From Sipunculus nudus (taxonomy: Eukaryota > Annelida > Sipuncula > Golfingiida > Sipunculidae), in the NCBI GenBank assembly GCA_026874595.1, contig CM049318.1, forward strand, positions 20,559,456 to 20,623,455: a stretch of DNA of 64,000 nt, written 5' to 3'. Each line of letters opens with the position of its first letter. Position 1 is the stretch's first letter. The translations under genes were made by a program, and so were the position numbers. A model generated the notes under the pieces. That model did not search any database, was not told where the DNA came from, and saw only the letters and a program-made list of their open reading frames with translations. Of the stretch, positions 4,851 through 37,772 are shown piece by piece.

Positions 4851-6020
4851 ATGAAAAACTAGACGTGGTCGGACAATGGTCCTCAGAGGGCCCTGCCTTT
4901 CTGCTAGTGCTGGACTAGTTTACATATGGGTGAAAATAAGTTAAATTTGAAAAATATGACAAACAGAAACAGGTTTTTATCCTTATGCATGAGAAAAAAA
5001 GTCCCACTGGATCAAAAGATATGTCTGAAATAATGGGTGCAGTAGAAAATCAACAAATGTAGTCTGTTAGCCATAATGGATTTTGAGCAAGTCTGTAATT
5101 CAATAAGTCAGGAGCCCTCATAGACACCAATGATTCCTGTGAAATCAGGGAAAGCTGCAGTAGGTTGTTGTCAAGTTATTACATGTGAAAGAAAATCAGC
5201 AATCGTGCTGTGGCAGCCATATTGGAACTCCAACAGGTCTGTAATTCAATAGGTCTGGAGCCCTTACAAGTTACATGTACCATCCATCCCTGTAAATTTG
5301 GGAAAGCTGAAGCATGTTGAGTTACCATGGGTGAAAGAATAATAGGGATTGGGCTGTGGCGGCCATATTGGAACTCCAACAGGCCTGTAATTCAATAGGT
5401 CTAGTGCCCTAGAGCTTGAAGGTACCAATCATCCCAGTGAATTTGGGAAAGCTGTAGCAGGTTGTTGTTATCACGCATAAAAGAAAATCAGCGATCGGAC
5501 TGTGGTGGCCATATTGGAATTCTGACAGATCTGTAATTCAATAGGTCTGGAGCCCTAATAGGTACCAATGATCCCTGTGAATTTGGGAAAGCTGCAGTAG
5601 GTTGTTGTTGAGTTATTGCGCATGAAAGAAAATCAGCAATCGGGCTGTGGTGGCCATATTGGAATTCTGATAAGTGTGTAATTCGATAGGTCTGGAGCTG
5701 TCATAGGTACCAATTATCCCTGACAGTTTGGGGAAGCTGCAGAATGTTGTTGAGTTATCGTGTGCGAAAGAAAATCAGTGACTGGGCTCTGGCGGCCATA
5801 TTGAAATTCTGACGTGTCGGTAATTTGATAGGTCTGGAGCCCTCATAGGTACCAATCATCCCTGTGAATTTGGGAAAGCTGCAGTAAGTTGTTGTTGAGT
5901 TACGCGTGCTGCGAAAGAAAGTGTCACTGACGGAAGTACAGAAAGACGGACTGACACGGTGATCACTATAGCCTATAGGGCACTGCTTGTCAAGCGGGGC
6001 CCTAATTAATATTCTTCTAT
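4850..6020. repeat. six-copy tandem array, about 145-bp unit
   Basis: gggaaagctg recurs at about 5148, 5300, 5445, 5585, 5731 and 5871. Each unit also has ggccatattggaa, ctgtaattcaataggtctgg and ggtaccaat. The array is bounded by actagacgtggtcgg.. on the left and gcactgcttgtcaagcgggg on the right, so it is probably the body of one element. Confidence 0.88.
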
Positions 6021-6775
6021 AATTCTGCATGACAGTTGTTGTATTTAATTGACTGCTGGGCAGCTCCTATAATATACTAACTTAAGCATGATGTGATTTC
6101 TATTTATATAGAATCCATTATACACAAACTAGAATTGGAGGTGAACCTGTGCAATAACTGAATAAATTGTGCTGAAGGGCATCAATATGAGAACAGTCCT
6201 GCCATGGCTGAGCAGTATTACCCACACTGAATACCATCATGCAGACTGAGGACTTGCTTCTTGATTATCAACAAAGGGCATGAAGGGGGTAAATTTCAAA
6301 CAGAAGATCCACAGAAAAAATCATGGGTCTTGTCAAAGGCATTACATGGATTAATAGAGGCTTACCAGTGCTGCTTAAAATTTTACAGCGAAGTTTTATT
6401 GTCTTGACGCTCACTGTCATCGTATGAGGTTGAAATTAAGGCCAAGTAACAGAATCTATGTAAAAAAGGTTGTTAAAATGGCTGAGAGGTTAACTGGGAC
6501 TTCTTTTCCATCTTTTGAATCACTTTATCCTAAGAGATTGCTTAAGATAGTGCATCTTCTTATAATACATTTTAACCACCAAGCTCTGTTAATGAAATCT
6601 GGACTCCACAATAAGTTGTTGCCAAGTTATTAAAAAATAACTTTAACCATTGCTCATGTACCAATCATCAAGGAACTAAACCAATCCAGTGGAGAAATCT
6701 ACACTGTAGAAAATAAGCTTTCATGCACAATTTTATGTACCTATTTTATTTTTGCCTCTGCCATGAGGTATATAT

Positions 6776-7189
6776 ATATTTTTTTAAATTTTATTGGAGG
6801 TAACCACCTCCATTTTCAAATGCTAACTTAACTACATTTATTTACATCTGCAAAATTCCATTCCAGTTTCAGATTAGGTGACAGGGCAGTATCACAAGCT
6901 TCCTCTCATTTTATATCCTAAGTCAACGAGGCCCTTTGACAACTCCACCAGCAGGCCCTGGGTGTGTAATCATCCCCATTGCCGGGTCATAACACCGAGG
7001 AAGCCCTAAGGGCTCACTCGTTTGTGAGTGAAACAGTGGCGTTCACACTGTTACTGTTACAGCCTTCCCATTAAGCCTGCAGAGCGCTCACCCCGGGTGG
7101 GCCCTAGTGAAAATTCTCACCGCCTCGGCTGAGATTCAAACTTATGATCTCCTGGCCTAGAGTCCTGTGCTCTACCCGAGCCACAGAAA
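6776..7189 (-). mobile_element. second copy of the tRNA-derived SINE family, minus strand
   Basis: Same order as the copy at 52.3 kb: head at 7189-7120 (A box TGGCTCGGGTAG, B box AGTTTGAATC, more decayed), a body with catccccattgccgggtcat and aacaccgagga, and the 3' palindrome ggaggtaaccacctcc at about 6796. The A tail is short and interrupted, and no clear TSD is seen, so it is older. Confidence 0.85.
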
Positions 7190-7470
7190 CCAGTCAGGAG
7201 GTAGAAGGTTTGTGTGTTCATTCCAGGTGGTGTGCGCGTTTGTTCACAACATAACTCATGTAATCATGAACAGAATGGCACAAATTTTTCTGGGCATTTC
7301 GGGAATATGCCAAGGAAGAATCAGGTTAGATTTTGGTGTGGATCTGCCACATGACCCGGAAGCGTGATCATCAGGGAATAGTCACAAATGTACAGTCACT
7401 TATGCACAAAGGAACCTGGGATATGAGCCCAATAAATGAATGCCCATATGGTGGAGGCTTGTATTCATTA
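7190..7470 (+). repeat. interspersed element, copy 1 (family shared with 32.86-33.22 kb)
   Basis: Shares an ordered series of segments with the copy in the RBMS intron: tgtgcgcg, ataactcgtgtaatcatga, ggcatttcgggaat/ggcatctgaggaat, ttagattttggtgtgg, and gaacctgggatatgagcc. This family includes a 'ggcggaggtctacac' end in copy 2. It directly follows the SINE at 6.78-7.19 kb. Confidence 0.65.
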
Positions 7471-7659
7471 GAATGCAGATTTCTAGATTTATCAATGTAT
7501 TCTTTTACAACAAGCCAGTCAAGATATACTTTAGTATGCAACATTTTATCACATATAAAGCAATAAAATGCCTTATCTCATCAAATGGTTTTCTGGTAAA
7601 TGGAGGTACATTTGGCAGTTTGTTAGAGGAGTGAGAAAGTGGTTAGCTTTATAAATATC

Positions 7660-9989
7660 TATTTATTTTTCATACAACTGAGCTCACACCAGGATTAATT
7701 TGCACATTCATGCGAAACTAATTTTGTGAGTGACGTCTAAGTCTGTTTATGTTCAACAACATTTTATTCCCTTGATATCCTTGATTGCAACAAATGTTTA
7801 CCTAACATATACACAGTGTGTTCACATGGTCCGCACGTACACCCCCCACAGTAACACCATCGAGGAATTCAGGCCACTGTCTGGCACTTACATCTACACG
7901 AAAAAAAAAATGTTACAATGTGTTCAGTGCCCTGACACAACCGCGATAATAACTCTTCTATATCATGATCTGTACAAAATAATACATACATAACACCAAC
8001 CAGAGGGACAACTGAGTACCCCCTTGAGCTAGTTCCCCTGAAAGTAAACAGGTGGCGCTGATGTCTATATGATGTCCACCGATATAAATTCGCCACCTTG
8101 GTTGAGCCTGGTACAAAGTGCGCAATCATAACAATGGTGGCCAACCAAGGCGAAATAACTGGATTGGAATTTCCTAGGTAAAAGTGAAAAAATAAATCCT
8201 TGCCCATCTCTGCTGTATATATGGAAAGCACGAAAACATTCAATGCATGTGACATTTTCTTACCATATATCACTAGTCTTCAACTGACCGTGTTCACTAA
8301 ACAAGTTCCCTAAGTATAGATATAATTAAGCCAAATGAACCCTAACTATCATCACGCACTGTACACTATCTACATTTTTGTGTGGTATTTTTCAGTTTAT
8401 ATATCATCATCATTTATCATCATCAATTTTATCGTCTCATGGTTCAATATGACAAAAATTGTACGTACGAGCAAATCCTATGTATTGCACACATCACGCA
8501 ATCACTGGTTGTATTTATGTACAGGCCTATACGGAATAAGATGATTCACGGGAACCCTTCCACGTCTGCCGCCGTGACAACATGATTTGCTAATACAGAA
8601 GCATGATCGCAGATGGGATAAGTCAAGTTCATAATCTCACAAAATGAAAAAAATTTAATGATGAATAATAGCGACTCCTAACCAACAGATTTCATTGAGG
8701 GCTCATACGTATATATATCTAGCCTCACTTTCATACCATGTATTGGGTACAAGGCTCAATTTACAGCTCAAATGACATACTGGGATGATCTTATCTAAAA
8801 CATATGCAGCTGCTTACTTATATACCTGATGAAAATATATATATACGATCGAAAGGCTATGATACAAAAAAAGCAAGAAAACCAACCTTGTATATACTCA
8901 TGCTGGTTGAACTTGCAGTCATTTGTATTCCCTTACCATAGACATAGTTATTATGAGCGACACGAAAAACAACTTAGTTATTAGTAACATAGAATAATGC
9001 AATTTGTGTCTCATTCAATTCCCTAAAGAAGAGCATTTACTTTTGAGTACAAATCTTAACGTAGTGACACAATGCCCGGTATATGCCACAATGTGCCTTC
9101 GGGTACAGTAAATGCTAAGAGATTATGGTTACAATGTATAAATGTTTATATCATTTTGCATCACAGTCATCATTTTGGCATCAGGTTCGGGTGGTCAAAC
9201 TTCAATCCCATCTTCCCCTGCCTGCTGGCGGGAAGACAATAGGCTAGGAATATACAACACACAAGGTCTGCCCCCCTTTATGTACAGTAAGTGAATGAGG
9301 GGGGATAGGATAAGTTGTCTACACTATATACAGTATCTATACCACCCATCACTTGCTGGCCTTACAGCGGCTAGGGAATGATGGGTAGTCAAGAATTGTA
9401 CACATTAACAAAGCTAACAAGGGTCGTAAAACCCGGGTTGTGCTAAAAACGTCATCATTATAATTCCGCTAAAACAACACAGAAAGCCTGGTTTAAAACA
9501 TGTCATCAAAAATAGCCAAGCTCCGAAACATCTATACACCTCCCTAAAAACCAGCCGTAATCGGCCGTTGCAACAATAGCTACATAAATGATTCAAAAGA
9601 GCAACAGTCCGCTATACACACACGCACACACACACATGCACATAAAACCTGGCATCATCCATCTCCCTAACATGTTACATTTATGTACATCAGGCTCAAC
9701 ACAGTGGCCTGTTATGTGAAATCTAAAATTTGAGTTGTAAACACTCGTGCTATAGATAACTGCAGTAGATCCTCAATTTTAATCATCTTTCTCTGTGCTG
9801 TAGTCAACAAAACAAAAATATGTCAACAATAACACAATTAAAATCATCTTAATCGACAGCAAAAAATTGATCAATTTTACAGACTGGGAAAAAAAAGAAA
9901 AAAAAGTGTTCCCTCCATGACGAATGAAAGACCACAGTCTTGCGATGCATTGCATTTGGTAGCTGCTGTTGACCGCAAGATGAATCCTG
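7660..9989 (-). other. putative long 3' UTR of the distal RBMS isoform
   Basis: Downstream of the candidate terminal exon lies about 2.3 kb that is mostly free of the repeat families found elsewhere in the window. An AATAAA hexamer on the minus strand at 7667-7662 could end it. Four TGTANATA Pumilio-type octamers occur on the minus strand (9682-9689, 9325-9332, 9279-9286, 8516-8523), and two on the plus strand. A CA-rich microsatellite is at 9615-9643. The ORFs seen here (for example 8273-7869 minus) have no recognisable domain and look accidental. Confidence 0.35.
7662..7667 (-). terminator. candidate poly(A) signal AATAAA
   Basis: A canonical hexamer on the minus strand at the distal edge of the repeat-poor block 7.66-9.99 kb. 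It would serve the distal isoform. No AATAAA or ATTAAA is seen on the minus strand inside the satellite. Confidence 0.3.
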
Positions 9990-10074
9990 CTAACCTCCGA
10001 GCAGAGGTGGCACCGCCGTGGAAGTTCGCTTGGCACTGCTGGTCTCGTCTTGCAGGTTCCTGGTGAACTTCAGC
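9990..10074 (-). CDS. candidate distal alternative C-terminal exon of RBMS, beyond the satellite
   Basis: The acceptor tttgacattgcag at 10075-10087 is followed by an open frame LKFTRNLQDETSSAKRTSTA then VPPLLGG and TAG (9992-9990). Its codons are strongly biased to CTG, AAG, TTC, ACC, GAC, GAG and AGC, as in a true exon. The frame needs two upstream bases; a donor GCCAA/GTAGAT at the end of exon 10 supplies AA+G, which gives Lys and a 390-aa protein. A second open frame (AEVHQEPARRD...) would join to phase-0 exon 9. I see coding character and an acceptor; the link to RBMS is inferred. Confidence 0.5.
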
Positions 10075-12007
10075 CTGCAATGTCAAAGGTTAAAGGTCAT
10101 GATCTCAGGAGAAAACTGGACTGGCATATTTTATTGATATGACAAAACTTGGTGCTGGTTGTCTATCTAAAAGTGAATATATTCTATATGCAAGGAATAC
10201 AGACATGGCCAGAGGGTTACCTAGTCCTTTCTCCTGCATGTGCCCTACTACTCAGGTTTTGTCAATATGTCTGTGCAATACCTAGAAGTTTTGTTAATTT
10301 GTCCCCAATGGGTTGTCTACTTTTTTTCTGTTTTCAGACCTGATAAGTTTCAACTTTCTTGGTATTCCTGCAAGGTTGTTCAAATGTCTGAATTGAGTGT
10401 TTGACTATTCACCTGTACTTATCTCAGGAGCTGTTAGCTTCTAGTAGGTACATATGAACTGACCAAAGGGGTTGTCTACTGTGTGCGGGTTCTAATCACG
10501 GGGTTGTTTACTTGTGCAGCATGCCTCTGTACTAACATCAGGGCTTGCCTATTTGACCTACAAGGTGGTCTACTATACACATGTACTAACCTAAGTAGTT
10601 GTCCACTGTGTCTGTGTACTGACCTGAGAGGTTTTCTACTTGTCTGTGTACTGATCCAAGGGGTTGTCTACTGTGTCTGTGTACTGACCTGAGGGGTCGG
10701 CTGCTTGTCTGTGTATTGACCTCATGGGTTTCTACTTGTCTGTGTACTGAGCCAAGGGGTTGTCTACTGTGTCTGTGTACTGACCTGAGGGGTCTTCTGC
10801 TTGTCTGTGTATTGACCTCATGGGTTTTCTACTTGTCTGTGTACTGAGCCAAGGGTTTCTCTACTGTGTCTGTGTACTGACCTGAGGGGTCATCTGCTTG
10901 TCTGTGTATTGACCTCATGGGTTTTCTACTTGTCTGTGTACTGAACCAAGGGGTTGTCTACTGTGTCTGTGTACTGACCTGAGGGGTCGTCTGCTTGTCT
11001 GTGTATTGACCTCATGGGTTTTCTACTTGTCTGTGTACTGAACCAAGGGGTTGTCTACTGTGTCTGTGTACTGACCTGATGGGTCGTCTGCTTGTCTGTG
11101 TATTGACCTCATGGGTTTTCTACTTGTCTGTGTACTGAGCCAAGGGGTTGTCTACTTGTCTGTGTACTGACCTGAGGGGTCGTCTGCTTGTCTGTGTATT
11201 GACCTCATGGGTTTTCTACTTGTCTGTGTACTGAACCAAGGGGTTGTCTACTGTGTCTGTGTACTGACCTGAGGGGTCGTCTGCTTGTCTGTGTATTGAC
11301 CTCATGGGTTTTCTACTTGTCTGTGTACTGAGCCAAGGGGTTGTCTACTGTGTCTGTGTACTGATCTGAGGGGTCGTCTGCTTGTCTGTGTATTGACCTC
11401 ATGGGTTTCTACTTGTCTGTGTACTGAACCAAGGGGTTGTCTACTGTGTCTGTGTACTGACCTGATGGGTCGTCTGCTTGTCTGTGTATTGACCTCATGG
11501 GTTTTCTACTTGTCTGTGTACTGAGCCAAGGGGTTGTCTACTTGTCTGTGTACTGACCTGAGGGGTCGTCTGCTTGTCTGTGTATTGACCTCATGGGTTT
11601 TCTACTTGTCTGTGTACTGAACCAAGGGGTTGTCTACTGTGTCTGTGTACTGACCTGAGAGGTCGTCTGCTTGTCTGTGTATTGACCTCATGGGTTTTCT
11701 ACTTGTCTGTGTACTGAACCAAGGGGTTGTCTACTGTGTCTGTGTACTGACCTGAGGGGTCTTCTACTTGTCTGTGTATTGACCTCATGGGTTTTCTACT
11801 TGTCTGTGTACTAAACCAAGGGGTTGTCTACTGTGTCTGTGTACTGACCTGATGGGTCGTCTGCTTGTCTGTGTATTGACCTCATGGGTTTTCTACTTGT
11901 CTGTGTACTGAACCAAGGGGTTGTCTACTGTGTCTGTGTACTAACCTGAGGGGTCGTCTGCTTGTCTGTGTATTGACCTCATGGGTTTTCTACTTGTCTG
12001 TGTACTG

Positions 12008-13560
12008 AACCAAGATGTTGTCTACTGTGTCTGTGTACTGACCTGAGGGGTCGTCTGCTTGTCTGTGTATTGACCTCATGGGTTTTTCTTCTTGTCTGTG
12101 TACTGAACCAAGGGGTTTTCTACTGTGTCTGTGTACTGATCTGAGGGGTCGTCTGCTTGTCTGTGTATTGACCTCCTGGGTTTTCTACTTGTCTGTGTAC
12201 TGAGCCAAGGGGTTGTCTACTGTGTCTGTGTACTGACCTGAGGGGTCGTCTGCTTGTCTGTGTATTGACCTCATGGGTTTTCTACTTGTCTGTGTACTGA
12301 GCCAAGAGGTTGTCTACTGTGTCTGTGTACTGACCTGAGGGGTCGTCTGCTTGTCTGTGTATTGACCTCATGGGTTTTCTACTTGTCTGTGTACTGAGCC
12401 AAGGGGTTGTCTACTGTGTCTGTGTACTGACCTGAGGGGTCGTCTGCTTGTCTGTGTATTGACCTCATGGGTTTTCTACTTGTCTGTGTACTGAACCAAG
12501 GGGTTGTCTACTGTGTCTGTGTACTGACCTGAGGGGTCTTCTACATGTCTGTGTATTGACCTCATGGGTTTTCTACTTGTCTGTGTACTAAACCAAGGGG
12601 TTGTCTACTGTGTCTGTGTACTGACCTGAGGGGTCGTCTGCTTGTCTGTGTATTGACCTCATGGGTTTTCTACTTGTCTGTGTACTGAACCAAGGGGTTG
12701 TCTACTGTGTCTGTGTACTAACCTGAGGGGTCGTCTGCTTGTCTGTGTATTGACCTCATGGGTTTTCTACTTGTCTGTGTACTGAACCAAGATGTTGTCT
12801 ACTGTGTCTGTGTACTGACCTGAGGGGTCGTCTGCTTGTCTGTGTATTGACCTCATGGGTTTTTCTTCTTGTCTGTGTACTGAACCAAGGGGTTTTCTAC
12901 TGTGTCTGTGTACTGATCTGAGGGGTCGTCTGCTTGTCTGTGTATTGACCTCCTGGGTTTTCTACTTGTCTGTGTACTGAGCCAAGGGGTTGTCTACTGT
13001 GTCTGTGTACTGACCTGAGGGGTCGTCTGCTTGTCTGTGTATTGACCTCATGGGTTTTCTACTTGTCTGTGTACTGAGCCAAGAGGTTGTCTACTGTGTC
13101 TGTGTACTGACCTGAGGGGTCGTCTGCTTGTCTGTGTATTGACCTCATGGGTTTTCTACTTGTCTGTGTACTGAGCCAAGGGGTTGTCTACTGTGTCTGT
13201 GTACTGACCTGAGGGGTCGTCTGCTTGTCTGTGTATTGACCTCATGGGTTTTCTACTTGTCTGTGTACTGAACCAAGGGGTTGTCTACTGTGTCTGTGTA
13301 CTGACCTGATGGGTCGTCTGCTTGTCTGTGTATTGACCTCATGGGTTTTCTACTTGTCTGTGTACTGAGCCAAGGGGTTGTCTACTTGTCTGTGTACTGA
13401 CCTGAGGGGTCGTCTGCTTGTCTGTGTATTGACCTCATGGGTTTTCTACTTGTCTGTGTACTGAACCAAGGGGTTGTCTACTGTGTCTGTGTACTGACCT
13501 GAGGGGTCGTCTGCTTGTCTGTGTATTGACCTCATGGGTTTTCTACTTGTCTGTGTACTG
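12008..13560. repeat. 777-bp (eight-unit) block duplicated inside the satellite
   Basis: Rare variants recur in the same order 777 bp apart: aaccaagatgttg at 12008 and 12785, and ggtttttcttcttg at about 12081 and 12858. The tgacctcctggg and ccaagaggttg variants follow in both. This shows a recent block duplication of eight 97-bp units. Confidence 0.85.
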
Positions 13561-15720
13561 AGCCAAGGAGTTGTCTACTGTGTCTATGTACTGACCTGAG
13601 GGGTCGTCTGCTTGTCTGTGTATTGACCTCATGGGTTTTCTACTTGTCTGTGTACTGAACCAAGGGGTTGTCTACTGTGTCTGTGTACTGACCTGATGGG
13701 TCTTCTGCTTGTCTGTGTATTGACCTCATGGGTTTTCTACTTGTCTGTGTACTGAGCCAAGGGGTTGTCTACTTGTCTGTGTACTGACCTGAGGGGTCGT
13801 CTGCTTGTCTGTGTATTGACCTCATGAGTTTTCTACTTGTCTGTGTACTGAACCAAGAGGTTGTCTACTGTGTCTGTGTACTGACCTGAGAGGTCTTCTG
13901 CTTGTCTGTGTATTGACCTCATGGGTTTTCTACTTGTCTGTGTACTGAACCAAGGGGTTGTCTACTGTGTCTGTGTACTGACCTGAGGGGTCGACTGCTT
14001 GTCTGTGTATTGACCTCATGGGTTTTCTACTTGTCTGTGTACTGAGCCAAGGGGTTGTCTACTGTGTCTGTGTACTGACCTGAGGGGTCGTCTGCTTGTC
14101 TGTGTATTGACCTCATGGGTTTTCTACTTGTCTGTGTACTGAACCAAAGGGTTGTCTACTGCGTCTATGTACTGACCTGAGGGGTCGTCTGCTTGTCTGT
14201 GTATTGACCTCATGGGTTTTCTACTTGTCTGTGTACTGAGCCAAGGGGTTGTCTACTGTGTCTGTGTACTGACCTGAGGGGTCGTCTGCTCGTCTGTGTA
14301 TTGACCTCATGGGTTTTCTACTTGTCTGTGTACTGAACCAAGGGGTTGTCTACTGTGTCTGTGTACTGACCTGAGGGGTCTTCTGCTTGTCTGTGTATTG
14401 ACCTCATGGGTTTTCTACTTGTCTGTGTACTGAACCAAGGGGTTGTCTACTGTGCCTGTGTACTGACCTGAGGGGTCGTCTGCTTGTCTGTGTATTGACC
14501 TCATGGGTTTTCTACTTGTCTGTGTACTGAGCCAAGGGGTTGTCTACTGTGTCTGTGTACTGACCTGAGGGGTCGTCTGCTTGTCTGTGTATTGACCTCA
14601 TGGGTTTTCTACTTGTCTGTGTACTGAACCAAGGGGTTGTCTACTGTGTCTGTGTACTGACCTGAGGGGTCGTCTGCTTGTCTGTGTATTGACCTCATGG
14701 GTTTTCTACTTGTCTGTGTACTGAACCAAGGGGTTGTCTACTGTGTCTGTGTACTGACCTGATGGGTCTTCTGCTTGTCTGTGTATTGACCTCATGGGTT
14801 TTCTACTTGTCTGTGTACTGAGCCAAGGGGTTGTCTACTTGTCTGTGTACTGACCTGAGGGGTCGTCTGCTTGTCTGTGTATTGACCTCATGGGTTTTCT
14901 ACTTGTCTGTGTACTGAACCAAGAGGTTGTCTACTGTGTCTGTGTACTGACCTGAGAGGTCTTCTGCTTGTCTGTGTATTGACCTCATGGGTTTTCTACT
15001 TGTCTGTGTACTGAACCAAGGGGTTGTCTACTGTGTCTGTGTACTGACCTGAGGGGTCGACTGCTTGTCTGTGTATTGACCTCATGGGTTTTCTACTTGT
15101 CTGTGTACTGAGCCAAGGGGTTGTCTACTGTGTCTGTGTACTGACCTGAGGGGTCGTCTGCTTGTCTGTGTATTGACCTCATGGGTTTTCTACTTGTCTG
15201 TGTACTGAACCAAAGGGTTGTCTACTGCGTCTGTGTACTGACCTGAGGGGTCGTCTGCTTGTCTGTGTATTGACCTCATGGGTTTTCTACTTGTCTGTGT
15301 ACTGAGCCAAGGGGTTGTCTACTGTGTCTGTGTACTGACCTGAGGGGTCGTCTGCTCGTCTGTGTATTGACCTCATGGGTTTTCTACTTGTCTGTGTACT
15401 GAACCAAGGGGTTGTCTACTGTGTCTGTGTACTGACCTGAGGGGTCTTCTGCTTGTCTGTGTATTGACCTCATGGGTTTTCTACTTGTCTGTGTACTGAA
15501 CCAAGGGGTTGTCTACTGTGCCTGTGTACTGACCTGAGGGGTCGTCTGCTTGTCTGTGTATTGACCTCATGGGTTTTCTACTTGTCTGTGTACTGAGCCA
15601 AGGGGTTGTCTACTGTGTCTGTGTACTGACCTGAGGGGTCGTCTGCTTGTCTGTGTATTGACCTCATGGGTTTTCTACTTGTCTGTGTACTGAACCAAGG
15701 GGTTGTCTACTGTGTCTGTG
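13560..15720. repeat. 1,066-bp (eleven-unit) block duplicated inside the satellite
   Basis: Marker variants repeat at a 1,066-bp offset: tcgactg at 13991 and 15057, and ctgctcg at 14286 and 15352. The ccaaagggttgtctactgcg variant is also present in both blocks. This is an independent, larger amplification step than the 777-bp block. Confidence 0.8.
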
Positions 15721-18586
15721 TACTGACCTGAGGGGTCGTCTGCTTGTCTGTGTATTGACCTCATGGGTTTTCTACTTGTCTGTGTACTGAACCAAGGGGT
15801 TGTCTACTGTGTCTGTGTACTGACCTGAGGGGTCGTCTGCTTGTCTGTGTATTGACCTCATGGGTTTTCTACTTGTCTGTGTACTGAACCAAGGGGTTGT
15901 CTACTGTGTCTGTGTACTGACCTGAGGGGTCGTCTGCTTGTCTGTGTATTGACCTCATGGGTTTTCTACTTGTCTGTGTACTGAACCAAGGGGTTGTCTA
16001 CTGTGTCTGTGTACTGACCTGAGGGGTCTTCTACTTGTCTGTGTATTGACCTCATGGGTTTTCTACTTGTCTGTGTACTGAACCAAGGGGTTGTCTACTG
16101 TACTTGTACTGTACTTGTACTGACCTGAGGGGTCGTCTGCTTGTCTGTGTATTGACCTCATGGGTTTTCTACTTGTCTGTGTACTGAGCCAAGGGGTTGT
16201 CTACTGTGTCTATGTACTGACCTGAGGGGTCGTCTGCTTGTCTGTGTATTGACCTCATGGGTTTTCTACTTGTCTGTGTACTGAACCAAGGGGTTGTCTA
16301 CTGTGTCTGTGTACTGACCTGATGGGTCGTCTGCTTGTCTGTGTATTGACCTCATGGGTTTTCTACTTGTCTGTGTACTGAGCCAAGGGGTTGTCTACTT
16401 GTCTGTGTACTGACCTGAGGGGTCGTCTGCTTGTCTGTGTATTGACCTCATGGGTTTTCTACTTGTCTGTGTACTGAACCAAGGGGTTGTCTACTGTGTC
16501 TGTGTACTGACCTGAGAGGTCGTCTGCTTGTCTGTGTATTGACCTCATGGGTTTTCTACTTGTCTGTGTACTGAACCAAGGGGTTGTCTATTGTGTCTGT
16601 GTACTGACCTGAGGGGTCGACTGCTTGTCTGTGTATTGACCTCATGGGTTTTCTACTTGTCTGTGTACTGAACCAAGGGGTTGTCTACTGTGTCTGTGTA
16701 CTTACCTGAGGGGTCGTCTGCTTGTCTGTGTATTGACCTCATGGGTTTTCTACTTGTCTGTGTACTGAACCAAGGGGTTGTCTACTGTGTCTGTGTACTG
16801 ACCTGAGGGGTGGTCTGCTTGTCTGTGTATTGACCTCATGGATTTTCTACTTGTTTGTGTACTGAGCCAAGGGGTTGTCTACTGTGTCTGTGTACTGACC
16901 TGAGGGGTCGTCTGCTTGTCTGTGTATTGACCTCATGGGTTTTCTACTTGTCTGTGTACTGAACCAAAGGGTTGTCTACTGTGTCTGTGTACTGATCTGA
17001 GGGGTCGTCTGCTTGTCTGTGTATTGACCTCATGGGTTTTCTACTTGTCTGTGTACTGAGCCAAGGGGTTGTCTACTGTGCCTGTGTACTGACCTGAGGG
17101 GTCGTCTGCTTGTCTGTGTATTGACCTCATGGGTTTTCTACTTGTCTGTGTACTGAACCAAGGGGTTGTCTACTGTGTCTGTGTACTGACCTGAGGGGTC
17201 TTCTGCTTGTCTGTGTATTGACCTCATGGGTTTTCTACTTGTCTGTGTACTGAACCAAGGGGTTGTCTACTGTGCCTGTGTACTGACCTGAGGGGTCGTC
17301 TGCTTGTCTGTGTATTGACCTCATGGGTTTTCTACTTGTCTGTGTACTGAGCCAAGGGGTTGTCTACTGTGTCTGTGTACTGACCTGAGGGGTCGTCTGC
17401 TTGTCTGTGTATTGACCTCATGGGTTTTCTACTTGTCTGTGTAATGAGCAAAGGGGTTGTCTACTGTGTCTGTGTACTGACCTGAGGGGTCTTCTACTTG
17501 TCTGTGTATTGACCTCATGGGTTTTCTACTTGTCTGTGTACTGAGCCAAGGGGTTGTCCACTGTGTCTATGTACTGACCTGAGGGGTCGTCCGCTTGTCT
17601 GTGTATTGACCTCATGGGTTTTCTACTTGTCTGTGTACTGAACCAAGGGGTTGTCTACTGTGTCTGTGTACTGACCTGAGAGGTCGTCTGCTTGTCTGTG
17701 TATTGACCTCATGGGTTTTCTACTTGTCTTTGTACTGAGCAAAGGGGTTGTCTACTGCATCTGTGTACTGACCTGAGGGGTCGTCTGCTTGTCTGTGTAT
17801 TGACCTCATGGGTTTTCTACTTGTCTGTGTACTGAACCAAGGGGTTGTCTACTGTGTCTGTGTACTGACCTGAGAGGTCTTCTACTTGTCTGTGTATTGA
17901 CCTCATGGGTTTTCTACTTGTCTGTGTACTGAGCCAAGGGGTTGTCTACTGTGTCTGTGTACTGACCTGAGGGGTCGTCTGCTTGTCTGTGTATTGACCT
18001 CATGGGTTTTCTACTTGTCTGTGTACTGAACCAAGGGGTTGTCTACTGTGTCTGTGTACTGACCTGAGGGGTCGTCTGCTTGTCTGTGTATTGACCTCAT
18101 GGGTTTTCTACTTGTCTGTGTACTGAGCCAAGGGGTTGTCTACTGTGTCTGTGTACTGACCTGAGGGGTCGTCTGCTTGTCTGTGTATTGACCTCATGGG
18201 TTTTCTACTTGTCTGTGTACTGAACCAAGGGGTTGTCTACTGTGTCTGTGTACTGACCTGATGGGTTGTCTGCTTGTCTGTTTTCTGACCTCACGGGTTT
18301 TCTACTTGTCTGTGTACTAAGCCAAGGAGTTGTCAACTGTGTCTATTTACTGCCCTGAGGAGTTATCTACTTGTCTGTTACTGCCTGGAGGGGTTGTCTA
18401 CTTGTCTGTGTACTGCCCAGAGGGGTCATCTACTGTGTCTGTACACTGACCTGATGGGCTGTCTTTTTGTGTGTACTGTCTGAGGGATTGTTTCCTATGT
18501 CTATGTACTGACTTGAGGGGTCATCTACTTGTCTGCATACTACCTAGGTTTTGTCTACTTGTCTGTGTACATACCTGAGGGGTCAT

Positions 18587-18697
18587 CTACTTGGCCAATG
18601 CAGGAGCCGGGGCGCTGGCCTGTGCCTGGCTGTAGGTCTGGAACGCATGCTGCTGCTGTTGATCCTCTGCCCCCGGTGTTACTGTGTTACTATGATC
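18587..18697 (-). CDS. RBMS exon 10: C-terminal coding segment with TAG stop
   Basis: A 111-nt coding end with acceptor tttgtcacag. It encodes [17 protein letters not shown] then a tail ending [10 protein letters not shown] and TAG (18589-18587). DHSNTV matches the DHSPYT block that closes vertebrate RBMS. The last bases CAAGTAG and all the sequence beyond belong to the satellite monomer. An alternative reading is a splice donor GCCAA/GTAGAT at the same spot, which would turn the stop into intron and join to the exon at 10074. Confidence 0.88.
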   Translation of the reverse strand, partial: DHSNTVTPGAEDQQQQHAFQTYSQAQASAPAPALAK

Positions 18698-36600: not shown

Positions 36601-37772
36601 GGTTTAAAACCACTGCTCTAGGCGCTCCTTACACTAAAATTTTGAAAGAGCCGACAGATGTGATGACACACAAGCCAAGCAGTTTGTACCTAATGATAGT
36701 GGGAACTGTGGGTCTGAAATTTTGTAACTGCATTTTGAAACCTGCAAATCCACCACTCTCATTGGCTGGATCATTCTGCGCCTTGTGGCCACTCCCTGGC
36801 AGCAATATATGCCCAAAACCCTGTCACTGGAAGCAGTGGTTGAGTGGAGGAAGTTACAGAAGTGATGTATTGAGACCAGAACATAAAATTATCCACCAAA
36901 AAAAGCTTCTAACCTACCTTTACATTTGTTAGTATTCTGGTCTATTATTGCTTTCGTAGATGTTATCGCTCCAAATCTGTAAAACAAAGAATGCATATAA
37001 AACCTGAATCATAAGGAAACCATGCACCTGGCAGACATAAAAACACTAAAATGTGACATAATTCCTAAATGCAATAATAAAGGGTAAGCTTTCCTATTAA
37101 CATTTCATCCTAAACAATAAATTTTTGTGTTCTTTCTTATTCTGCTACCAAATGACTTTAATGCAGACATGTTAAGTGGTGTTAAGTTCCTATGGTTCTG
37201 AGCTTTTTTCTTCTTTTAAAACTAGATTTGAAGAAAACAGGATTAATTCATAACTGATCCACTTCTTGTCTATTTTTTCTGCACCATTAAACTGATTAGA
37301 TAAAATACTGAATCTGAAAAATTTCTATTAATCATTTAACTAAATGATTAAAAAATTTAATTAAATTTATACTGATATGTCATTTTCCAAGACATATCTG
37401 ACTGCTGAATCCAAAAGCCAACTCCCCTCTCCACCCCCACCCCCTCTATATAGTGAGAATATACAGTTTATAAAACAAGACCTTTGACTCCCGATTTATT
37501 TGTTTATAATATACAGGTGCCTCTGATATACAGAGTAATTACTGTTGACAGAGCTGTTATAGATCCTTAGTACTTTTTTTGTGTGAGACCTCTAATATAC
37601 AGAGTACTTACTGTTGACAGAGCTGTACTAGATCCTTGTCACTTGTATTTTGTGTGAGGCCTCTAATATACAGGTTGGTCGTGCTTAATGATTCCCCAGA
37701 TGAGGACTGTGTACTAGACTGACTACTGGAGGTATTAGGGCTCTGAGCCGGCATGGTTCTGTTAGGATAAGT
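18587..37772 (-). CDS. RBMS/shep-family two-RRM RNA-binding protein (whole gene, joined exons)
   Basis: Ten exons with consensus GT/AG sites and consistent phases join in this order: 37772-37612, 36976-36918, 33411-33320, 31891-31672, 31235-31150, 30597-30554, 25193-25055, 24000-23893, 20740-20651, 18697-18587. Starting at the first in-frame ATG (37754-37752) gives 363 codons plus TAG. RRM1 (about residues 27-97) has RNP2 LYIRGL and RNP1 KGYGFVDF. RRM2 (about 106-183) has RNP2 LYIANL and RNP1 RGVGFCRM. Then come VKFADGG and KKKN, typical of RBMS1-3 and Drosophila shep, and a Met/Pro/Gln-rich tail containing a DHSNT block like the DHS near the end of vertebrate RBMS proteins. Family members bind AU-rich single-stranded nucleic acid and regulate mRNA stability, splicing or insulators, often in neurons; that is family knowledge. 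The vertebrate paralogue (1, 2 or 3) cannot be assigned. The true N-terminus may lie in an upstream exon, because the frame is open across the acceptor at 37772. Confidence 0.93.
18698..19379. other. intron 9-10, proximal part
   Basis: Intron sequence between exon 10 and the regulatory island. I see no further exon or recognisable repeat. The long + strand ORF at 18529-19011 is antisense to exon 10 and continues into the satellite edge, so it is an accidental shadow. Confidence 0.6.
19380..20620. promoter_or_regulatory. intronic regulatory-like island (CCAAT, PBX/MEIS-like, CRE, AP-1 motifs)
   Basis: Within the last intron upstream of exon 10 is a CpG-containing, repeat-free stretch. It has CCAAT boxes at 19421-19425 and 19476-19480, TGATTGACAG at 19497-19506, and three TGACGTCA palindromes at 20253-20300. 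AP-1 TGACTCA lies at 20526-20532 and an inverted CCAAT at 20557-20562. The density of classic promoter motifs suggests an enhancer or an internal promoter. The + strand ORF at 19727-19972 lacks any domain I recognise. Function is inferred from motifs only. Confidence 0.45.
20253..20300. promoter_or_regulatory. cluster of three perfect CRE palindromes (TGACGTCA)
   Basis: TGACGTCA occurs at 20253-20260, 20278-20285 and 20293-20300, with an extra half-site TGACG at 20271-20275. Such sites are bound by CREB/ATF dimers. Three full sites in 48 bp of AT-rich DNA are far above chance. Confidence 0.7.
20651..20740 (-). CDS. RBMS exon 9: Tyr/Gln/Pro-rich tail segment
   Basis: A 90-nt exon (30 codons, phase 0 at both ends) with acceptor gattttcag and donor gtaggt. 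It encodes [19 protein letters not shown] then [10 protein letters not shown]. The order Y-x-x-A-Y-x-Q-Y..P and a short V/I-E end parallels the GAYLPQYAHMQ...VEE region of vertebrate RBMS. Confidence 0.9.
20741..23892. other. intron between exons 8 and 9 (contains the candidate microexon)
   Basis: 3.15 kb of AT-rich intron with phase 0 at both ends. Apart from the 36-nt candidate exon at 22350-22385 I see no coding segment and no clear transposon. A weak tandem occurs at 21,720-21,790 (ctgaggtaact repeated). Confidence 0.7.
22350..22385 (-). CDS. candidate 36-nt cassette microexon ([12 protein letters not shown])
   Basis: Between exons 8 and 9, which meet in phase 0, lies a 36-nt open stretch with acceptor ctaattgcag and donor CAG/gtatga. 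It would insert 12 residues, [12 protein letters not shown], without changing frame. Perfect phase, consensus borders and good codons argue for it. I know of no matching insert in other RBMS proteins, and a 36-nt open stretch can occur by chance. Treat it as an optional exon. Confidence 0.4.
23893..24000 (-). CDS. RBMS exon 8: Met/Gln-rich tail segment
   Basis: A 108-nt exon (36 codons, phase 0 at both ends). The acceptor is gttgttttag, which reads straight into ATGATTCC, and the donor is gtaagt. It encodes [19 protein letters not shown] then [17 protein letters not shown], corresponding to the MISPLAQQMSHLS region of vertebrate RBMS. As a phase 0-0 exon it could be skipped without a frameshift. 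Confidence 0.9.
24040..24184. mobile_element. small Tigger/pogo-like MITE
   Basis: A 145-bp segment starts cagaaaaacctcg and ends gaggatttactg. Those are imperfect terminal inverted repeats of the kind seen in Tc1/pogo (Tigger-like) elements, and the interior has the usual paired short motifs (cctccataaagtggtc and gtggtcgctaaagagg). TA follows the right end; on the left TA lies two bases out. It sits in the intron just upstream of exon 8. Confidence 0.45.
25055..25193 (-). CDS. RBMS exon 7: Pro/Gly/His-rich tail segment
   Basis: A 139-nt exon with acceptor ttctttgcag and donor gtgagt. It completes Gly (QNG) and encodes [15 protein letters not shown], then [17 protein letters not shown], ending in phase 0. 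The WMxQHPQYI segment parallels the SWMQPQPYI region of vertebrate RBMS. It is separated from exon 6 by a 5.36-kb intron. Confidence 0.9.
25194..30553. other. 5.4-kb intron between exons 6 and 7
   Basis: AT-rich intron. A 27-bp unit is repeated at 25925-25990 (aattgttcttatacagaaaa), and a roughly 60-bp partial duplication lies at 26815-26900 (ttttgataattgg..ctgcagcc). The rest is low-complexity intron in which I see no exon or transposon. A short AT microsatellite lies at 25478-25493. Confidence 0.7.
30554..30597 (-). CDS. RBMS exon 6: short linker exon ([13 protein letters not shown])
   Basis: A 44-nt exon with acceptor tgcatttcag and a consensus donor gtaagt. It encodes [14 protein letters not shown] plus two bases of Gly. 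The pattern P-x-x-Y-D-x then Q-N-G corresponds to the conserved YDP...QNG motif of vertebrate RBMS and fly shep, which supports this very small exon. Confidence 0.9.
31150..31235 (-). CDS. RBMS exon 5: end of RRM2 and basic KKKN segment
   Basis: An 86-nt exon with acceptor gtgtgtgcag and donor gtgagt. It completes the Gly codon, encodes [19 protein letters not shown] and ends WVNRED in phase 0. KFADGG followed by a Lys cluster is a hallmark of the RBMS/shep family just after the second RRM. Confidence 0.94.
31672..31891 (-). CDS. RBMS exon 4: complete core of RRM2
   Basis: A 220-nt exon (223 or 217 nt with the alternative acceptors) and the longest one. It encodes [14 protein letters not shown] (RNP2) through [11 protein letters not shown] (RNP1) and ends CLP plus one base. 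The donor is gtcagt at 31671-31666, a weaker site with C at +3. The acceptor is a tandem AAG-CAG-CAG, so exon starts at 31894, 31891 or 31888 would give three, two or one Gln after AK. The 31891 start matches the AKQQEQDP order known in vertebrate RBMS. Confidence 0.94.
31892..33319. other. intron between exons 3 and 4, with an interspersed repeat
   Basis: 1.4-kb intron. Its upstream half (32,860-33,225) is a copy of the element also found at 7,190-7,470. The + strand ORFs at 32282-32906 have no domain I recognise and are probably accidental. Confidence 0.6.
32860..33225 (+). repeat. interspersed element, copy 2 (family shared with 7.19-7.47 kb)
   Basis: Same family as 7,190-7,470, with an extra internal partial duplication (two segments beginning 'tggaacatatatgcaccaatg' / 'ggacactggaatatgggcca'). 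It ends with 'catggcggaggtctacac'. It lies inside an RBMS intron, 95 bp upstream of the exon 3 boundary on the plus strand. Confidence 0.65.
33320..33411 (-). CDS. RBMS exon 3: RNP1 of RRM1 to inter-RRM linker
   Basis: A 92-nt exon with acceptor gttttacag and donor gtaggt. It completes the Gly codon, then encodes [12 protein letters not shown] (RNP1 of RRM1) and GVQAQMAK, the conserved linker into RRM2. It ends in phase 0. The VQAQMAK segment is essentially the same as in vertebrate RBMS proteins. Confidence 0.95.
33412..35159. other. intron 2-3, AT-rich part
   Basis: Very AT-rich intron. The + ORF 33889-34071 and the - ORF 34304-34098 have no recognisable domain. No other feature seen. Confidence 0.6.
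35160..36430. repeat. 665-bp tandem pair of a degenerate repeat with ACGG tail
   Basis: Two diverged copies (35160-35660 and 35824-36325) start cgtgccatggtca at 35164 and 35829. They share, in order, atgtttgggcccataact, ggcatgt.cata.g, gtggttttgatattaggcag and gtttttaat. After the second copy come an (ACGG)n microsatellite (36347-36378) and the terminal 'gtcagctgagcta' motif shared with the blocks at 1.92 kb and 64.0 kb. It lies in the intron between exons 2 and 3. Confidence 0.8.
36918..36976 (-). CDS. RBMS exon 2: middle of RRM1
   Basis: A 59-nt exon with acceptor tgttttacag and donor gtaggt. It starts with one base that completes Gln, encodes [19 protein letters not shown], and ends with one base of Gly. 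The STKAI and TNKCKG segments are diagnostic of the RBMS RRM1. Its phases match both neighbouring exons exactly. Confidence 0.95.
37509..37594 (-). pseudogene. degenerate tandem copy of the 3' half of RBMS exon 1 with its donor
   Basis: The segment repeats the end of exon 1 (GLTQ...KDL..LCQQ) and the flanking donor region. In this copy the frame runs GLTQKKY and then TAA, because of changes in an A-run, and the donor is the weaker gtaatt instead of gtaagt. It lies directly downstream of the real donor, in the first coding intron, with a unit of about 86 bp. Confidence 0.8.
37612..37772 (-). CDS. RBMS exon 1 (coding): Ser-rich leader and start of RRM1
   Basis: A 161-nt exon. The acceptor is a pyrimidine tract ending in ttttcag at 37773-37775, and the donor is gtaagt at 37611-37606. 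It reads in phase 0 from TYPNRT, then ATG at 37754, a Ser/Thr-rich linker and [20 protein letters not shown], ending after two bases of a Gln codon. The ATG context (aaccATGcc) is acceptable, so translation may start here if upstream exons are untranslated. The ATG-less residues upstream (TYPNRT) could instead be joined to an unseen N-terminal exon. The 3' half of this exon, with its donor, has a degenerate tandem copy immediately downstream in the intron. Confidence 0.93.

Follow-up and report, generated by a model that had tools for sequence, protein, structure and literature searches.

The window analysed here, a stretch of 64,000 nucleotides (C13:20559456-20623455 in a Sipunculus nudus assembly of 1.427 Gb and 153 contigs), contains an RBMS gene on the minus strand, with exons ordered from high to low coordinates. 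The assignment to RBMS, made in the first-pass annotation, is borne out by the match of RRM2 (31.9 kb) to human RBMS1 in the PDB (E 6e-35) and by the detection of Pfam RRM_1 in two of the three RBMS exon ORFs tested. Since the gene is on the minus strand, the 8-kb tandem array at this locus comes after the last coding exon. In the gene direction the exon end reads GCC AAG TAG ATGACCCCTCAG/GTATGTACACAGACAAGTAG... (a slash in a motif marks the splice position), with 18575 as the last exonic base and a putative intron from 18574 onwards (Table 1). A scan of the window against Rfam at gathering scores produced no matches.

Table 1. Features of the RBMS locus, in window coordinates.
Feature	Position	Strand	Basis or remark
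Second RBMS exon tail (RRM1 exon, ends 37612) with donor ACA/GTAAGT, tandemly duplicated 69 bp x 2.2	37520..37673	(-)	TRF and sequence
Last coding exon of RBMS, ending in ...APALAK and stop	18575..18697	(-)	Acceptor TTTGTCACAG/ to post-stop donor; frame and splice-site context; ends placed from sequence
TAG stop codon	18587..18589	(-)	Within first monomer
First (exon-tail) monomer AAGTAGATGACCCCTCAG/GTATGTACACAGAC	18560..18592	(-)	22.9 bits, E 5e-6; model had not seen it
First 5' splice site CAG/GTATGT, 12 nt past stop	18569..18577	(-)	U1 duplex -9.7 kcal/mol
Decayed monomers, exon-to-core interval	18459..18559	(-)	Profile search
Array core built of 97-bp A-C-B trimers, with CAG/GTCAGTAC in class A	10609..18458	(-)	TRF and segmentation
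Decayed monomers, far side of array	10304..10608	(-)	Profile search (10481-10458, 10322-10304)
AATAAA, candidate poly(A) signal if array read through	10130..10135	(-)	First on gene's strand after 18700
Candidate downstream exon after TTGACATTGCAG/	9960..10075	(-)	By eye; acceptor AG 10076-10075; G+C 0.578

Tandem Repeats Finder (TRF), proposed earlier as a check, returned one array at 10609-18458 with a period of 97 bp, 80.9 copies and 96% matches. Segmentation resolved it into 242 monomers of ~32 bp (160 of 32 bp, 76 of 33 bp and 6 others) belonging to three classes, A (83), C (80) and B (79), the A-C-B order being interrupted solely at the two array ends. The longest exact self-matches are one of 679 bp, displaced by 777 bp (8 units plus 1), and one of 595 bp, displaced by 1066 bp (11 units minus 1), evidencing the duplication of blocks of about 8 and about 11 trimers. 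The three organizational levels described in the first-pass annotation are therefore confirmed by TRF, segmentation and exact block matches, its ~79 trimer copies become about 80, and the limits it assigned to the array, 10440-18593, are right to within the decayed monomers at both ends. With head-to-tail units in the range of ~10-100 bp (32-33-bp monomers, 97-bp trimer) at a single locus, the array has the structure of a minisatellite or candidate VNTR.

Within the 97-bp unit the class B monomers are near-invariant, with a mean of 0.20 edits from their own consensus vs 0.93 for A and 1.11 for C, although common descent of the variants makes these counts non-independent. This uniformity of class B is not accounted for by homogenization at the trimer level alone. 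A second, more diverged tandem array is present at 5070-5902 (TRF; 146-bp unit, 5.7 copies, 78% matches).

A monomer profile trained on 117 core monomers was used to search the window with the core masked. The exon tail of RBMS (CAAGTAGATGACCCCTCAG; 18592-18560, 22.9 bits) ranked second to a decayed monomer on the far side of the array (10481-10458, 23.8 bits); two further decayed copies scored 20.6 bits (18530-18498) and 14.9 bits (10322-10304), and the next best place in the window 10.6 bits. In addition, CAAGTAGATGACCCCTCA, which includes the stop codon, is found in the exon (18593) and recurs as an exact repeat at 18531. It follows from the score of the exon tail as a monomer and from this exact recurrence that the first repeat includes both the stop codon and the 5' splice site; the array had been described as touching the stop codon of RBMS, and the relation is closer than that, the stop lying inside the first monomer. 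To judge from its sequence, the monomer (class A in the gene direction, TACACAGACAAGCAGACGACCCCTCAG/GTCAG) corresponds to the final bases of the last coding exon joined to the 5' splice site that follows them. The first unit of this donor-bearing minisatellite is thus the real exon end, as placed from frame and splice-site context, and the duplicated segment carries AG/GT across the exon-intron border, a feature of intron gain by tandem duplication.

In 10400-18593 the sense strand has 78 strong U1-type sites (<= -9.4 kcal/mol) and the opposite strand has none, vs a flanking background of 36 sites at -9.4 kcal/mol or better in ~111 kb of strand-sequence. Pairing with the 5' end of U1 gives -9.7 kcal/mol for the first donor, -9.4 for the class A site CAG/GTCAGTAC, and -7.0, -10.3 and -11.2 for the donors of three RBMS exons. 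The unit contains a good 5' splice site in the sense direction: CAG/GTCAGT is present in one monomer of three, CAG/GTCAGTAC being intact in 71 of the 82 class A tails read; class B has the weak site GAG/GTCAATAC (-4.2) in 78 of 79 monomers, and class C has no good donor site. An equally good donor is contained in 137 of 2000 dinucleotide-shuffled units (6.9%), and therefore it is position, not motif strength, that carries the argument. The donor match taken alone as proof of a splice-site origin was weakened by these shuffled units and was not retained as such.

The content of the array also bears on the proposal that it has been kept for a function, as a U1-binding platform near the 3' end that would restrain nearby poly(A) cleavage or slow the polymerase. 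The 78 U1-type sites are located on a single strand directly upstream of the AATAAA at 10135, and a precedent exists in other animals, where U1 protects transcripts from premature polyadenylation (human, mouse and Drosophila; PMC5499120). However, the copies are accounted for by ordinary array turnover and a donor occurs by chance in 6.9% of shuffled units, and selection for such a platform is considered quite unlikely.

Beyond the array, no AATAAA or ATTAAA is found on the gene's strand between 18700 and 10135. This lack of poly(A) signals in the array is equally compatible with read-through, and it can be proposed that the last exon is unspliced past the stop and that the array is a very long 3' UTR, transcribed through the repeats to the signal at 10135. 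The acceptor at 10075 (context CCTTTGACATTGCAG/GCTGAAG) fails a crude acceptor rule (>= 11/15 pyrimidines, no AG within 12 nt), which would also favor a 3' UTR; the same rule gives 12 other sites within 6000-18600, one of them inside the array. Conversely, a strong donor 12 nt past the stop, repeated 77 times, counts against a 3' UTR, as does the exon-like stretch past the array, whose G+C (0.578 vs 0.597 in the coding exon) exceeds that of the sequence beyond (0.391); altogether, an unspliced 3' UTR seems unlikely. Splicing within the stop codon, from CCAA/GTAGAT to the acceptor at 10075, would produce a longer C terminus (...ALAKLKFTRNLQDETSSAKRTSTAVPPLLGG and stop), with TAG used only when the intron is retained. 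The reading frame is indeed continuous across such a junction, with 27 open codons beyond it, a length that is not unusual, but the CAA/GTAGAT donor is weak (-3.0 vs -9.7 kcal/mol) and this arrangement is very unlikely.

In a genome search for the array unit, all 81 matches listed fall at the RBMS locus (match counts are lower bounds); the check for the repeat elsewhere, proposed earlier, thus gave no other locus among the matches listed. A genome-dispersed satellite was ruled out as a candidate, as among the matches listed 81/81 are in one array. The likeness to homogenized heterochromatic satellites advanced in the first-pass annotation is real with respect to higher-order units and block duplications, but many arrays or a large dispersed copy number were not found (81/81 matches listed in this one array), and the unit consists of the gene's own exon end and donor, so the satellite interpretation is not supported. 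That annotation carried neither the strand nor the splice-site content of the array, nor the duplication at 37520-37673, nor the like arrangement at other genes. Since all matches listed for the unit are at this locus and it is built from the exon end and donor of the gene itself, the contact between array and gene represents its origin and not an oddity.

Inflation or misjoining of the array by the assembler was also weighed. Exact duplications of 679 and 595 bp are of the type that assemblers misplace, but the array lies in a contig of 70.9 Mb (C13), the decay of the monomers is graded at both ends and other arrays of such type exist at other genes, so that an artifact is highly improbable.

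Based on the sequence evidence, it can be hypothesized, with a probability of roughly two in three, that the array is a minisatellite specific to this locus, which a 5' splice site would have seeded, and that it most likely constitutes an intron. According to this model, a tandem duplication reaching from the end of the last coding exon of RBMS (AAG TAG plus 12 nt) into the beginning of the intron would have placed a second donor in the intron, where surplus copies would be harmless as long as the first donor functions; unequal exchange or slippage would then have raised the copies to ~240 monomers, the trimer and, presumably later, multi-unit blocks being the amplified units. Duplication across an exon-intron border, retention of copies in the intron and subsequent expansion are compatible with the anatomy of the putative intron. 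The donor-seeded model is backed by a second donor-spanning duplication in RBMS, that of the RRM1 exon tail (37520-37673), whose second copy is decaying in the intron and has GTAATT in the place of the donor.

The array would most likely be the expanded start of the intron, removed from the first donor. U1 would define the exon at this donor (18574), the intron would end at an acceptor past the array, perhaps that at 10075, and the exon beyond it would be a 3'-UTR or alternative terminal exon. To the first donor the array adds what would be 77 further good donors. Counted as sites matching CAGGT(A/C/T)AGT or CAGGTATGT, the post-stop donors are 78, of which one is located within 50 nt of the stop (12 nt), the next at 136 nt and the last at 7963 nt. 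In vertebrates, an exon junction beyond about 50 nt from the stop is known to expose an mRNA to decay (the 50-nt rule). Under this rule a decay-safe mRNA would come from the first donor only, because 1/78 donors lies within that distance; with an inner donor the distance from stop to junction would grow from 12 nt to at least 136 nt and the mRNA would become a target of decay, which would keep selection on the first donor while the other donors would act as decoys. RBMS is consequently a test case in which, among 78 donors, the first alone places the exon junction <50 nt from the stop.

Arrays of this kind were sought elsewhere with a pattern of three CAGGTRAGT separated by gaps of 10-40, loci being counted by hand with places <20 kb apart merged; the listing of loci is complete for contigs C1-C4 (405 Mb). 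These contigs hold 26 donor-array loci (L011-L036) vs 7 for the scrambled motif CAGTGRAGT with equal gaps, a difference with P 0.015 allowing for single-motif counts (26,382 CAGGTRAGT and 18,199 CAGTGRAGT) and 0.0007 at 1:1. A second control was the reversed motif. With gaps <= 28, for which its listing is complete, the donor motif gives 14 loci in C1-C4 and the reversed motif 3 (14 in the whole genome), with P 0.03 allowing for singles. With gaps of 10-40 the reversed-motif matches listed extend to C1:76.5 Mb, and over that interval they form 5 loci vs 2 for the donor, which speaks against the donor-seeding reading. Locus counts were used instead of raw triple matches (779 for the donor vs 189 for the reversed motif) because big arrays dominate the latter, and raw counts were set aside on finding that, apart from 3, the reversed-motif matches listed all belong to two big C1 arrays.

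The loci counted are not all independent, since L032 and L033 have a common unit and likewise two control loci on C1. L032 and L033 (C4, ~135 kb apart) also have near-identical upstream flanks, apparently as the result of a segmental duplication, and at the 5' edge of both no coding donor-strand ORF of >= 25 aa was found. Further runs of single CAGGTRAGT sites were observed at C1:2459619-2461794, C1:4431375-4432552 and C1:5201798-5202155, with spacings of ~62, 110 and 50-200 bp, respectively; these were missed by the triple pattern, so that the number of donor arrays given above is an undercount.

At all 26 loci, ORFs that cross an edge of the array in either direction were collected from the two strands and compared with Pfam (for L036 minus one 28-aa ORF, for L021 plus one ORF added by hand) and with the PDB (leaving out two repetitive L025 ORFs and the downstream-edge ORFs, 2472 aa). 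Pfam domains were matched at four loci, in all four in donor-strand ORFs entering the 5' edge of the array, which represent 2180 of the 7144 residues (P 0.009 for this concentration); L023 (LRR) and L027 (Kunitz) passed the cut-off and L013 and L018 were below it. In single PDB searches, L013 matched DOPA decarboxylase (E 5e-9), L018 ABCC2/MRP (E 9e-10), L026 XPD (E 4e-7) and L031 the axonemal dynein DNAI3 (E 7e-12), and in these four the alignment continues into the first repeat unit, as far as the final residue preceding the donor, as illustrated by the XPD array (ACAAGCCTAGCACTGTATAATTACCAACAG/GTAAGTCCCTCTCT, 8 copies). A recognized coding exon (XPD, ABCC/MRP, DOPA decarboxylase, DNAI3, LRR or Kunitz) is thus present at the array edge in 6/26 donor loci, with the alignment or domain ending at, or entering, the first unit. 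At the remaining 20/26, the Pfam and PDB searches of edge ORFs recognized no exon; short exons often have no detectable homolog. Joined-query PDB searches of the other 22 loci gave two matches too weak to be counted, a PH domain on the donor strand of L016 (E 0.2) and a utrophin-like match on the other strand of L022 (E 0.54), a locus whose unit contains AAG/GTAAAT on the utrophin-like strand. L021 and L034, by eye dehydrogenase-like and PI3K-like kinase, respectively, had no PDB match and were not counted either.

As controls, 15 stretches were fetched for 14 reversed-motif loci, and the edges of 11 arrays could be used (in L044 and L045 the array took up the whole stretch, and L046 and L051 had no TRF array). 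Their edge ORFs, searched without those at the downstream edge (1546 aa), gave no PDB matches at E up to 1 in the 11 arrays and no Pfam matches in the 10/11 loci scanned (L043 left out). The comparison of recognized edge exons, 6/26 donor loci vs 0/11 reversed-motif loci (P 0.10), is no more than suggestive. In two of the 11 controls an exon-like ORF likewise ends a short distance ahead of the array, at the 3' edge of L042 (antisense) and at the 5' edge of L038; the L042 array starts nine bases after CAG/GTAAGTGTT, with the donor outside the unit.

Given that similar repeats are found on exon ends elsewhere in the genome, the RBMS array looks like an extreme case of a little-studied multiplication of splice sites. 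The counts suggest, but do not prove, that arrays are seeded more frequently at donors than in comparable sequence, and part of any excess may reflect that such arrays are simply tolerated. The broader proposal that 5' splice sites are birthplaces of minisatellites, with true donors nucleating arrays several-fold more often than matched sequence through a local process plus the tolerance of intronic copies, is tentative and rather doubtful; breaks linked to nascent RNA or R-loops, or pausing at bound U1, could be the local process. If it were true, many introns would start with dozens of redundant donors, RBMS being the extreme, and these would be an unrecognized source of variation in splicing and 3'-end choice. 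In the titles and starts of abstracts of the open-licence PMC papers listed, donor-seeded minisatellites were not found described as a genome-wide class; subscription journals or full texts may differ. A testable rule can be formulated, namely that some minisatellites start at exon ends because the intron conceals a duplication that crosses the 5' splice site. Were this rule general, it would explain how long arrays can lie flush against conserved exons without harm, offer natural experiments on spliceosomal choice between dozens of near-identical donors and link minisatellite birth with splice-site evolution and intron gain.

Among known systems, higher-order satellite arrays resemble the RBMS array in their multimeric units and block duplications; unlike them, it is confined to one locus, lies inside a gene and has an exon-derived unit. 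A human minisatellite, in IFI6, is said to give its transcript multiple splice donors, to judge by the title of Turri et al. 1995. That title appears in the reference lists of PMC2572611 and PMC2915984. The likeness, again by title, is that units supply several splice donors; the RBMS array differs in its ~240 monomers, trimer level, block duplications, position at the gene end and stop codon in the unit, and, as far as the IFI6 title allows a comparison, in sharing its genome with several other arrays of the kind. The internal tandem repeats described in PMC2812944 at exon-intron boundaries of human segmental duplications have likewise minisatellite-length units (~30 bp on average), and changes in their copy number alter splicing and form new introns. 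They average 4 units and ~160 bp, compared with 8 kb in RBMS, and the genes concerned here are not known to belong to segmental duplications. Finally, in intron gain by tandem duplication, the topic of PMC4974935, duplication of an exon-intron boundary also carries copies of the splice signals along; there the new intron arises between the copies, whereas in RBMS the copies appear to lengthen the start of an existing intron.
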